A stretch of DNA of 37,261 nucleotides from Verrucomicrobiaceae bacterium (GTDB lineage Bacteria > Verrucomicrobiota > Verrucomicrobiia > Verrucomicrobiales > V1-33), in NCBI GenBank assembly GCA_027483175.1, contig JAIXVE010000141.1, positions 1-37,261 on the forward strand. The letters are read 5' to 3'. Position numbers and translations under genes: made by a program. The notes under the pieces are model-generated. The model was given only the letters and a program-made list of their open reading frames with translations, did not search any database and was not told the origin of the DNA. Positions 33,437 to 37,261 of this stretch are shown piece by piece. Positions within the stretch are counted from its first letter, which is position 1, and each line of letters starts with the position of its first letter.

Positions 33437-34195
33437 ATGTTCAATCGACTTGGCAGACTCATCAAAGGATTCTTCGGCCTCTTTGTTGGCGGCCTTGAGC
33501 GCAAGAATCCGGAAGCGCTTCTCGAGTTGGAGAAGGAGAATCTGCGGAAGCAGATTGGGGAGTACAACAAGGGATTGACTGGGCATGCGGCGCTGGTGGA
33601 GCGGTTAATTTCGCGGGTGCGGTCGCTGGAGGCGGAGGAGAAGGATCTGCACGCGAAGGTGCTGGCGAATCTGCGGGCTGGGAACAAGGAAGCGGCGGCG
33701 CAGTTTGCGTTGAGGCATCAGCAGGTGAAGACGGAGCATGTGGCGGTGCGCGGGCAATTGGAGGAATCGGAGCGGACGTATAAGGAACTGGTGACGGCGC
33801 GTGACGTGAGTGTGAAGGCGGCGCGTGAGAAGATTGAGAAAGTGGCGCGTGGGATCAACGAGGCGAAGGTGGCGAAGGCGACGGCGGAGTTGAATCAGAT
33901 GGCTGCGGGGATGGTGACGGAGATTGGGGCGGCTGGCGAGACGCTGGGGCGGTTGGAGGAGATTGTGCGGGAGGAGAAGGAGAAGGCGGCCGGGGTGGCG
34001 CGGGTGGCGCGTGACAGCATTGATATGACTGGGATTGCGATGAAGGCTGGGGAGCAGAAGGCGCTTGAGGATCTGGCGCTGGCGGATTTTGCGGCGATGG
34101 AGGGGATTGCGATCGAGGGGGCTTCGGCGTCCGGTAGTACGGGAGGTGAAGCGCCAGCGAAGACGATGAGCGGGCCGCAGGCGACTGCGGAGTGA
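33437..34195 (+). CDS. PspA/IM30 (Vipp1)-like membrane-associated coiled-coil protein
   Basis: ATG 33437 begins MFNRLGRLIKGFFGLFVGGLERKNPEALLE, an amphipathic first helix as in PspA/Vipp1. Long charged coiled-coil helices follow (LEKENLRKQIGEYNKGLTGH, VERLISRVRSLEAEEKDLHA, KTEHVAVRGQLEESERTYKE). The tail (~225-252) is Ser/Gly/Ala-rich. PspA, Vipp1 and eukaryotic ESCRT-III share a fold and polymerise on membranes. The spacing of 56 bp to the membrane protein and then the AAA+ ATPase suggests one unit. Earlier in-frame ATGs (from 32894) lie inside carA antisense sequence. PspA in the classical system is paired with PspF or PspBC, absent here. Confidence 0.85.
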   Translation: MFNRLGRLIKGFFGLFVGGLERKNPEALLELEKENLRKQIGEYNKGLTGHAALVERLISRVRSLEAEEKDLHAKVLANLRAGNKEAAAQFALRHQQVKTEHVAVRGQLEESERTYKELVTARDVSVKAAREKIEKVARGINEAKVAKATAELNQMAAGMVTEIGAAGETLGRLEEIVREEKEKAAGVARVARDSIDMTGIAMKAGEQKALEDLALADFAAMEGIAIEGASASGSTGGEAPAKTMSGPQATAE

Positions 34196-34251
34196 GCGTG
34201 GGTGGCTGGCCTTGCGGGTCGGACCATTGAGCGAATGAATCCGACGAGCCT

Positions 34252-34650
34252 ATGAACATGAATCAGATTGTGGGACCGCACCCGGGGGTGTGTGCCTTTT
34301 TGCTGGCGTTGGGAGGTTGTCTGCTGGCGGGTGGGGTCTATGGGGTATTGGGACCGGAGGGTGTGAGGCCTGCGGTGGCGGAGCCTGGTGGGATTGGGGA
34401 GATGGGGCCGTGGGCGCTGCTGGTGCTGGGGGCGGGGTTGTGGTTGTACGGGGCGTTGATGTTCGGGCGAGTGAGGGGAGTGAATCCGTGGTTATCGCTG
34501 CTGCTAGGGAGCCTGACGTTGCCGGGGATTCTGATCCTTGCGATGATTGGGAAGCCGTTGACGCCGCACGAGGCGTGGGAGCGGCAGAATCCCGGGATGG
34601 CGAAGCAACGCGTCCGGCGGGACTATCGAGACGTGAAGCCGCTGTACTGA
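34252..34650 (+). CDS. Small membrane protein in the PspA-AAA unit
   Basis: The 132-aa protein has three hydrophobic segments: VCAFLLALGGCLLAGGVYGVL, WALLVLGAGLWLYGALMF and LSLLLGSLTLPGILILAMIG. The cytoplasmic-looking C-terminal tail is charged (EAWERQNPGMAKQRVRRDYRD). No family is recognised. It sits between the PspA-like and AAA+ genes (56 bp and 40 bp), so it could be the membrane partner of the module. Confidence 0.7.
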   Translation: MNMNQIVGPHPGVCAFLLALGGCLLAGGVYGVLGPEGVRPAVAEPGGIGEMGPWALLVLGAGLWLYGALMFGRVRGVNPWLSLLLGSLTLPGILILAMIGKPLTPHEAWERQNPGMAKQRVRRDYRDVKPLY

Positions 34651-34690
34651 AGGATGGAGTGGGATTTAGAATTGAACTGAAGCTGAGTTG

Positions 34691-36349
34691 ATGGCGAATT
34701 TACCTGAATGGACGAGTGAGATTGCGGGGCAGTACGAGAGCCACGCGGCGAGTCAGTTTGTGCTGCATGGGAATGTGGGTGATCTGTTTGCGCTGCCTGA
34801 CAGCGGTGGGGTGAGGCTGGCTGGGCTGGAGGATTACCTGCTCGATACCCTGCTGACGGGATTTGATGTGGTGCTGACGTATGATTTAGGGAATGGGTTG
34901 CGGGTGGTGCGTGGGCAGAAGGTGTTTGCGTTGTGGCCGACGTACGGAGCAGGGCAGGCGTTGCCGAGGGTGCCGCGGGAGGCGGTGGATCTGCTGACGC
35001 ATTATGCGCGGTTTCTTTCGAATGTGCGGCGGGTGAAGGGTGAGACGGTGAAGGCAGCGTTTATCCTGAGGGAAGCGGCGCTGTCGATTCCTGCTGCGCC
35101 GGGGGGATTGAACAATGATTTGAATGCGATGGCGCTGCTGGTGCGGGCGTGGGCATCGGAGACGGCGCTGACGGAGCATCCGCTGGCGACGTTTCTGATC
35201 ACGGAGAATCTGAATGATCTGCATCCGCTGGTGGCGGGGGATCCGCGGTCGGCGAACATCCGGGTACCGCTGCCGGGGCCTGAGGAGCTTGTGGCTGTGT
35301 TCACGGCATTGGCGGCGAAGTATCCGGTGGCGTTAGGGTCGTGGGCGGGGAAGCTGGAGGTTCCGGCGGGGCAGTTGGCGGGAGCGAGTCTGGTATCGAT
35401 TCAGTCGTTGCTGAGGACGAAGGAGTACCGGAAGGAGGCGATTACGGAGCAGGATCTGGCGGTGCTGAAGAAAGAGTTGGTGGAGAAGGACAGTCAGGGG
35501 TTGATCGAGTTCATCGAGCCGAAGCGGACATTGGATGATCTGCACGGGCAGGAAGCGATCAAGGAGTGGATGCGTCAGGATATTGCGTTGTGGCGGCAGG
35601 GTGATCTTGAGGCGATGCCGATGGGTTATCTGCTGTGCGGGCCGGTGGGGACGGGGAAGACGTTCATGGTGGAATGTCTGGCAGGGGAAGCAGGGGTGCC
35701 GGTGGTGAAGATGAAGAATTTCCGGGACAAGTGGGTTGGGAGTACGGAGGGGAATCTGGAGAAGATCTTCCGTCTGCTGCATGCGCTGGGGAGATGTTAT
35801 GTGTTCATTGATGAAGCGGACCAGGCGCTAGGGAAACGGAATCAGGATGGCGACAGCGGGGTGGGCGGTCGCGTTTATTCGATGATGGCCAAGGAGATGA
35901 GCGAAAGCAGCAATCGCGGGAAGATTGTGTGGATTCTGGCGTCGAGTCGGCCTGACTTGATTGAGGTGGATTTGAAGCGGCCTGGGCGTGTGGATGTGAA
36001 GATTCCGATTTTTCCGACGACGACGCCCGAGGAGGGGTTTCAGTTGATCCGGGCGTTGTGCAAGCGGCGGGGGATGGTGCTGGAGGCTGGGGATCTGGAG
36101 GTGTTGCGGGCGCGGATTCCTGACTGGCTGACGCCTGGGGCCGCGGAGGCGCTGGCAGTGAAGGTGTATCGGATGGTGAAGACGAAGCAGTTGACGCCGC
36201 AGGCAGCGCTAGCGGAGGCGTTGGAGACGTACCAACCGGCGGTGTCGCGGGAGACGATGGAGTTTCAGGTGGGGTTGGCGGTTTCTGAGGCGAGTGATTT
36301 GAGTTTTGTGCCGGAGTCGCTCCGGCATTTCGGGAATGCGGAGGGGTGA
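34691..36349 (+). CDS. AAA+ ATPase with Vps4-like pore loop and novel N-terminal region
   Basis: I choose ATG 34691 (MANLPEW; 552 aa) over the TTG three bases earlier. The AAA+ core is C-terminal: Walker A GPVGTGKT (317-324), pore-loop candidate KMKNFRDKWVGSTEGN (340-355), Walker B VFIDEAD (371-377), and SRH with sensor/arginine fingers SSRPDLIEVDLKRPGRVD (418-435). The pore loop W348-V-G matches the KWxG form of the Vps4/katanin/spastin clade rather than FtsH. A 280-residue N-terminal region (FVLHGNVGDLFALPD, then TFLITENLNDLHPLV, resembling a second, inactive P-loop-like fold) has no Walker A. With the PspA-like and membrane genes upstream, a polymer-disassembling motor is a plausible role. 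Confidence 0.85.
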   Translation: MANLPEWTSEIAGQYESHAASQFVLHGNVGDLFALPDSGGVRLAGLEDYLLDTLLTGFDVVLTYDLGNGLRVVRGQKVFALWPTYGAGQALPRVPREAVDLLTHYARFLSNVRRVKGETVKAAFILREAALSIPAAPGGLNNDLNAMALLVRAWASETALTEHPLATFLITENLNDLHPLVAGDPRSANIRVPLPGPEELVAVFTALAAKYPVALGSWAGKLEVPAGQLAGASLVSIQSLLRTKEYRKEAITEQDLAVLKKELVEKDSQGLIEFIEPKRTLDDLHGQEAIKEWMRQDIALWRQGDLEAMPMGYLLCGPVGTGKTFMVECLAGEAGVPVVKMKNFRDKWVGSTEGNLEKIFRLLHALGRCYVFIDEADQALGKRNQDGDSGVGGRVYSMMAKEMSESSNRGKIVWILASSRPDLIEVDLKRPGRVDVKIPIFPTTTPEEGFQLIRALCKRRGMVLEAGDLEVLRARIPDWLTPGAAEALAVKVYRMVKTKQLTPQAALAEALETYQPAVSRETMEFQVGLAVSEASDLSFVPESLRHFGNAEG

Positions 36350-37005: not shown

Positions 37006-37261
37006 ATGGCCAAGCCACGCGTCTACACTGAGCCGGAGACTGAAGCCGGGATTTACCACGTCTGTTCGCGGGTGGTGGACGGCAGGTACATCTTCGGGGA
37101 GCCTGAGAAGGAGGAATTTGTCCGCATGATGCGGTCATTGACCGCATTTCACGGGGTCGAGATCCTGACGTATTGCGTGATGAGCAATCATTTCCACATT
37201 CTGCTGAGGGTGCCGCGTCGGCCGGAGGGGTTTGATCTGCCGCTGGAAACGGTGCTGGAGC
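37006..37261 (+). CDS. RAYT/IS200-like REP-associated tyrosine transposase (partial, 3' end cut)
   Basis: ATG 37006 starts MAKPRVYTEPETEAGIYHVCSRVVDGRYIF and runs past the window edge at 85 residues. The HUH motif H62-F-H64 (VMSNHFHILLRVP) is the metal-binding centre of the Y1-transposase/RAYT family; the catalytic tyrosine would lie beyond the edge. RAYTs are chromosomal relatives of IS200/IS605 TnpA that process REP palindromes. The presence of dispersed palindromes at 8072 and 16987-17095 is consistent with this. Confidence 0.9.
   Translation, partial: MAKPRVYTEPETEAGIYHVCSRVVDGRYIFGEPEKEEFVRMMRSLTAFHGVEILTYCVMSNHFHILLRVPRRPEGFDLPLETVLE

Follow-up and report, generated by a model that had tools for sequence, protein, structure and literature searches.

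Gene layout and protein architecture

The window analyzed here, a whole stretch of 37,261 nucleotides (contig JAIXVE010000141.1 of the Verrucomicrobiaceae assembly GCA_027483175.1), harbored at its right end three genes in a row on the forward strand, coding for a PspA-like protein, a small membrane protein and an AAA+ ATPase. Across genomes, PspA and the ATPase behaved as a functional pair. The initial annotation, made from the sequence of the window alone, had taken the three genes for a possible bacterial module of the type formed by the endosomal sorting complex required for transport III (ESCRT-III) and the ATPase Vps4, and its three open reading frames were recovered with the same limits (Table 1). 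Intergenic gaps measured 56 bases between PspA and the membrane gene and 40 bases between the membrane gene and the ATPase. The annotated lack of PspC and PspF extended to the genome, where no PspC was found and where, in place of a PspF-level match, only generic bacterial enhancer-binding proteins were detected, far under the cut-off.

Codon changes were counted by comparing the window genes with those of a close relative (L022). Synonymous changes outnumbered non-synonymous ones in the ATPase (103 and 13, respectively) and in PspA (38 and 14), while the middle membrane gene accumulated 27 synonymous and 33 non-synonymous changes. These counts point to purifying selection on PspA and the ATPase, and to a much lower constraint on the gene between them.

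The PspA-like protein matched the family PF04012 (PspA_IM30) over residues 2 to 212 with 34.6 bits, barely over the curated cut-off of 33.9, and was the sole PF04012 match in the 5.86-Mb genome. Its AlphaFold model (mean predicted local distance difference test, pLDDT, of 72.7; alignment of 23 sequences) displayed helices at residues 2-23, 25-80, 84-136, 142-156, 166-189 and 197-222, followed by disorder, with helices 25-80 and 84-136 paired as a hairpin. As modeled, this order of helices (alpha0, long alpha1-3 hairpin, alpha4, alpha5) is the one of PspA and ESCRT-III proteins. Best structural matches of the model included Asgard ESCRT-IIIB, Vipp1 and E. coli PspA (Z 11.0, root-mean-square deviation (rmsd) 2.8, 125 residues); such a Z value is modest, and weak alone for a helical hairpin, yet the modeled fold agrees with the sequence family. 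A sequence search of the PDB with PspA returned no relevant match. Invariant residues among the 23 sequences were present in the alpha0 region (M1, F2, R4, G11, F12, L15 and F16), which by analogy likely binds the membrane, and in the alpha5-like region (A214-A216, F218-A220 and G223).

The ATPase matched PF00004 (AAA) with 89 bits over residues 313-439. Its C-terminal half encoded the family motifs GPVGTGKT, DKWVGS/DRWVGS, VF[IV]DEA and KRPGR, among which Walker A, Walker B and the pore loop were essentially invariant over 34 sequences. The ATPase site was intact except at sensor 1, where the Asn of classic AAA proteins was replaced by an invariant Ser in the Verrucomicrobial family (S419, around 35945-35947; ASSRPD). 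Ser was also observed at this position in distant Verrucomicrobiota homologues (MTSRPD), and Asn was kept in plasmid-borne homologues (GATNYPN).

The N-terminal half displayed neither a P-loop (0/34 sequences) nor a Walker B motif (0/34). In the model (mean pLDDT 83.8), the predicted order of strands and helices in this region followed the AAA core, and the whole protein (about residues 5-537) aligned with the tandem AAA proteins Rix7, NVL, Drg1 and p97 over 455-479 residues. The assignment therefore draws on the model and on the missing motifs, since the two halves shared no detectable sequence similarity (hhalign, probability 0.1). On this basis the N-terminal 265 residues, given in the initial annotation as an unassigned region of 280 residues in a seemingly little-studied ATPase, are most plausibly a degenerate AAA domain without a P-loop, of a kind already outlined by Ravi et al. 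2024 (PMC11237479).

Table 1. Position of the three genes and of their main features in the window
Feature	Position	Strand	Basis
Divergent PspA (P0001), ESCRT-III superfamily, Verrucomicrobiales subfamily, 252 residues	33437..34195	+	PF04012 34.6 bits; model helices; E. coli PspA match
PspA amphipathic helix alpha0, residues 2-23	33440..33505	+	predicted helix; likely membrane-binding, as inferred from known PspA
PspA alpha5-like helix (ALADFAA), residues 197-222, strongly conserved	34025..34102	+	predicted helix; invariant residues
PspA C-terminal tip KTMSGPQATAE, residues 242-252, candidate ATPase recognition tag	34160..34192	+	M244 invariant; pLDDT <50
Small membrane protein with three transmembrane segments (P0002), accessory at most	34252..34650	+	three hydrophobic segments; family-limited homologues
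AAA+ ATPase (P0003), 552 residues, predicted pseudo-AAA and active AAA	34691..36349	+	PF00004 89 bits; model mean pLDDT 83.8; full-length homologues
N-terminal pseudo-AAA domain, residues 1-265, without Walker A or B	34691..35485	+	missing motifs; model
C-terminal catalytic AAA domain, residues 268-536	35492..36298	+	yeast Vps4 Z 21.1, rmsd 2.8, 262 residues
Walker A GPVGTGKT, residues 317-324	35639..35662	+	invariant
Pore loop 1 DKWVGS, residues 346-351	35726..35743	+	D346, W348-S351 invariant
Walker B VFIDEA, residues 371-376	35801..35818	+	D374, E375 invariant

Distribution of the PspA and ATPase genes

PspA and the ATPase were nearly always retained or lost together across Verrucomicrobiota. 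Profiles of each protein were searched in 384 genomes of the phylum (minimum completeness of 90 requested). The PspA subfamily was present in 14 of them and the close ATPase family in 12, each of which also harbored PspA. The ATPase was never found without PspA (0/384), and PspA without the ATPase was limited to two genomes from one genus of another family (G069 and G078), whose orphan proteins (L128 and L129) belonged to the same subfamily with 250-260 bits. A Fisher test of co-occurrence gave 5e-21, an indicative value only as it ignores relatedness between genomes. Among relatives, the pair was either jointly present or jointly absent within families f2, f3, f4 and f6 of the order.

Linkage was assessed at 52 ATPase loci from the GTDB collection. 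PspA stood upstream of the ATPase on the same strand in 16 of them, always in that order when linked. Another 38 genomes, those of the unlinked loci and some with too little upstream sequence for a decision, were then considered, and PspA was located elsewhere in 35 of them. In the single-contig genome G276, the two genes were about 410 kb apart. Because the linked state requires four changes on the ATPase tree and is found in several of its deep branches, linkage is probably ancestral and was repeatedly lost. Strict co-occurrence and this probably ancestral linkage together support PspA and the ATPase as a functional pair.

The middle gene, in contrast, is not conserved. Its product, with three hydrophobic stretches, matched no Pfam family, and its homologues were found solely in the family to which the window belongs. 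The gene was absent between PspA and the ATPase in 7 of the 16 linked loci, where the gap shrank to 15-89 bp. Given these absences, the family-limited homologues and the weak constraint, it was rejected as a core part. One locus (L025:533-1531) carried two tandem, diverged copies of the membrane gene between PspA and the ATPase.

PspA tip and lineage of the ATPase

The PspA tail combined a hypervariable linker with a fixed tip. In complete PspA sequences of the family, a shared core of 223 residues gave way to a tail of 21-37 residues, in which the disordered linker (Gly, Ser, Glu, Ala, Thr and Pro) had a mean pair identity of 15%. The tip occurred in two forms: some proteins terminated exactly at (E)K[TA]M, and others continued from [KGST][TSA]MGP for some residues to an end near E or Q. 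It was present in 58 of 58 distinct tails, one of them with Leu replacing Met, for an expectation of 3.7 on average and 12 at most when each tail was shuffled (2000 shuffles). Nearly all Met residues of the tails (57/59) were located in the tip, and M244 was invariant among the 23 aligned sequences. The tip was modeled with pLDDT below 50. The orphan PspAs, encoded by G069 and G078 without the ATPase, ended in ENSKKS or KEKTS and were devoid of the tip; they are a natural control, though from one genus only. The suggested check for a MIM-like peptide at the C-terminus covered the MIM1 type: across 62 PspA sequences, the 70 C-terminal residues never contained a MIM1 consensus.

The ATPase fell outside the Vps4 lineage, to which it had been assigned as Vps4-like. 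In an AAA-domain tree (about 190 columns, few references taken from PDB alignments, long branches flagged), the four reference sequences of Vps4, katanin and spastin formed a clade (100/99) excluding the family of the window, which together with its distant homologues was split from all references (100/100). Mean alignment scores were of 186-189 with p97 D2 and VAT D2 and of 119-135 with Vps4. No Pfam match to an MIT domain was obtained in the ATPase, and Vps4_C (PF09336) was absent from the protein and from the whole genome, while M. jannaschii and S. acidocaldarius controls were positive. The ATPase displayed KRPGR where the meiotic clade has RRRFEKR. Tree, scores, missing domains and RPGR in place of RRRF led to the rejection of Vps4/katanin membership. 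The Vps4 label is thereby withdrawn, which leaves a Vps4-like mode of working unaffected.

The pore loop DKWVGS is present as annotated, but KWxG was discarded as a marker of the Vps4/katanin clade, being found in VAT D2 (KWVGE) as well as in Vps4 (KWLG/KWMG), while katanin and spastin displayed KYRG/KYVG in the alignments. Yeast Vps4 ranked first among structural matches to the catalytic domain (Table 1), with FIGL-1, spastin and p97 D2 within about 1 Z, so that the structure search cannot separate them. Best sequence matches in the PDB were VAT, AFG2 and Cdc48; best NCBIfam matches were CDC48 and FtsH, with PAN-type AAA also among the best family matches and CdvC weaker. By sequence score, the ATPase was closest to p97/Cdc48-type proteins, along with FtsH. 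It shares with p97/Cdc48, VAT, Rix7/NVL and Drg1 the tandem AAA layout, an unfoldase-type pore and a structural alignment over the whole length, but differs from them by a first AAA copy without Walker motifs, by the lack of a p97-type N-terminal substrate domain and by its separate clade.

Proposed role of the pair and competing explanations

The ATPase probably engages the PspA tip and extracts or unfolds subunits of the PspA polymer, performing Vps4-like work from a different AAA lineage. PspA would bind the stressed inner membrane via its amphipathic N-terminal helix, and its alpha1-3 hairpin and alpha5-like helix would mediate polymerization, as in known PspA and ESCRT-III proteins. The ATPase would assemble as a ring and recognize the tip that the floppy linker carries, a Met-centered KxM to which GP and some further residues are often added. 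The tail would then be threaded past the KWVG pore loops and the subunits extracted and unfolded, allowing turnover or constriction of the PspA coat. The degenerate N-terminal AAA domain would probably dock or stabilize the ring, in replacement of the MIT domain of Vps4. Like ESCRT-III and Vps4 of eukaryotes and archaea (CdvB/CdvC), the pair joins a polymer-former of the ESCRT-III superfamily, with a conserved C-terminal tail, to a classic AAA protein with an aromatic KWxG loop; unlike them, it is devoid of MIT, Vps4_C and MIM1, and its ATPase displays a pseudo-AAA N-terminal domain and belongs to another AAA lineage. The proposed ESCRT-III/Vps4-type module is therefore kept as a division of labour, for which it offers the best explanation, and given up as to Vps4 clade membership and the membrane gene.

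Several observations weigh against this substrate role. PspA and the ATPase were unlinked in 36 of the 52 loci, and no PspA was detected in 3 of the 38 further genomes (metagenome-assembled genomes of unstated completeness). The replacement of the sensor-1 Asn by an invariant Ser may make hydrolysis slow. The definition of the tip motif came after the data had been inspected, and the tails share ancestry, so that a stronger argument than the motif counts lies in how a hypervariable linker contrasts with a fixed tip. Full-length ATPase homologues (265-322 bits) were also obtained from five distant Verrucomicrobiota genomes (G075, G117, G147, G192 and G195) in which no PF04012 match was found. 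Others (28-29% identity) were carried by large Paenibacillaceae plasmids (L178, L179 and L180) beside small hypothetical genes, without any PspA on the plasmid records, which were the only records searched. Judging from these homologues, the ATPase family taken as a whole extends beyond PspA and is not dedicated to it, and dedicated pairing would be a feature of the clade of the window.

In the five distant Verrucomicrobiota loci (L130-L134), the ATPase was the last gene of a long operon encoding a VWA protein, a coiled-coil protein of 250 residues, an NMT1-type solute-binding and OmpA protein, an ATP-binding cassette (ABC) ATPase and a coiled-coil protein with a membrane anchor, although not every locus showed the full set. 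The coiled-coil protein of 250 residues was weakly PspA-like (14.5 bits in one locus, under the cut-off). Behind a variable stretch it ended in a conserved tip of its own, [KR]QKI[AS]E, in parallel to the KxM tip.

The main rival explanation, which we hold to be unlikely, makes PspA the regulator of the ATPase: PspA would bind and inhibit the AAA ring until released by membrane stress, and its tail would be the inhibitory contact. Strict co-occurrence fits this explanation equally well, and inhibition of PspF by PspA is established in E. coli (PMC3128695), where PspA is likewise paired with an AAA+ protein. PspF, however, is a sigma54 activator with a GAFTGA loop and a helix-turn-helix, and the ATPase of the window has neither; a PspF-like role was rejected for lack of the GAFTGA loop, and best family matches to CDC48, FtsH and PAN-type proteins also speak against a transcription activator. 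A pore-loop unfoldase facing a tip-tagged partner better suits a substrate.

A general chaperone or unfoldase, co-occurring with PspA through a shared stress regulon or niche and without contact, appears rather improbable. The unlinked loci and the distant homologues without PspA favour such an ATPase, which would nevertheless leave unexplained the near-exceptionless joint loss or retention with PspA, as well as the conserved tip and its absence from orphan PspAs. Acquisition of a true Vps4 from archaea along with an ESCRT-III protein would agree with the structure search, in which yeast Vps4 came first for the catalytic domain (Z 21.1, others nearly tied), but is very improbable, being contradicted by the tree clades, the scores, the missing Vps4_C and MIT and the KRPGR motif. 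An anti-phage system of the IetA type is hardly credible: PADLOC IetA models did score 44 bits (E 4.7e-12) in the AAA region, but only over the generic AAA core (259-439), NCBIfam IteA reached 23 bits for a cut-off of 510, no IetS subtilase was recognized beside the ATPase, and the latter is conserved across the lineage and often unlinked.

Pairs of this kind had already been predicted, and the mention of such neighbourhoods in comparative genomics was accurate. Ravi et al. 2024 (mSystems, PMC11237479) described PspA-linked ATPases with an inactive N-terminal AAA copy (examples AEY64321.1 and OGG56892.1) and predicted ATP-dependent remodelling from PspA-AAA neighbourhoods. From these descriptions, the window resembles their type by its PspA and its AAA protein with a second, inactive N-terminal AAA, while the OGG56892.1 operon (PspA-like protein, PBP-OmpA, ABC ATPase, membrane protein and AAA) resembles the loci of the five distant genomes. 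The lineage of the window differs by a compact or split pair without transport genes, by a distinct PspA subfamily and by the conserved C-terminal tip, which passages of that article on such pairs do not mention. The literature search found no paper on the Verrucomicrobial PspA and AAA pair. What this analysis adds is the near-exact co-occurrence, which extends to genomes where the genes are unlinked, together with the testing of the ATPase for Vps4 membership and the PspA tip.

Systems with both Vps4 and ESCRT-III are described as limited to archaea and eukaryotes (PMC11188069). Liu et al. 2021 (PMC8281802) treat the existence of a Vps4 equivalent for PspA/Vipp1 polymers as an open question, which is also discussed in a PspA structure paper of 2024 (PMC11746142). 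It is conceivable, though we advance it tentatively, that bacteria hold an ESCRT-III disassembly cycle of their own, independent of Vps4, in which a pseudo-AAA/AAA ring reads a Met-centered tag on PspA; ATP-driven turnover of ESCRT-III would then have arisen at least twice. The near-perfect phyletic match and the short candidate tag make the question of a Vps4 equivalent testable with two proteins.

Downstream of the ATPase, the window ended (37007-37261) with a gene start that resembled, as judged by eye, REP-associated (Y1-type) transposases (YHVCSRVVDGRYIF...MSNHFHILL) and was cut by the end of the contig.

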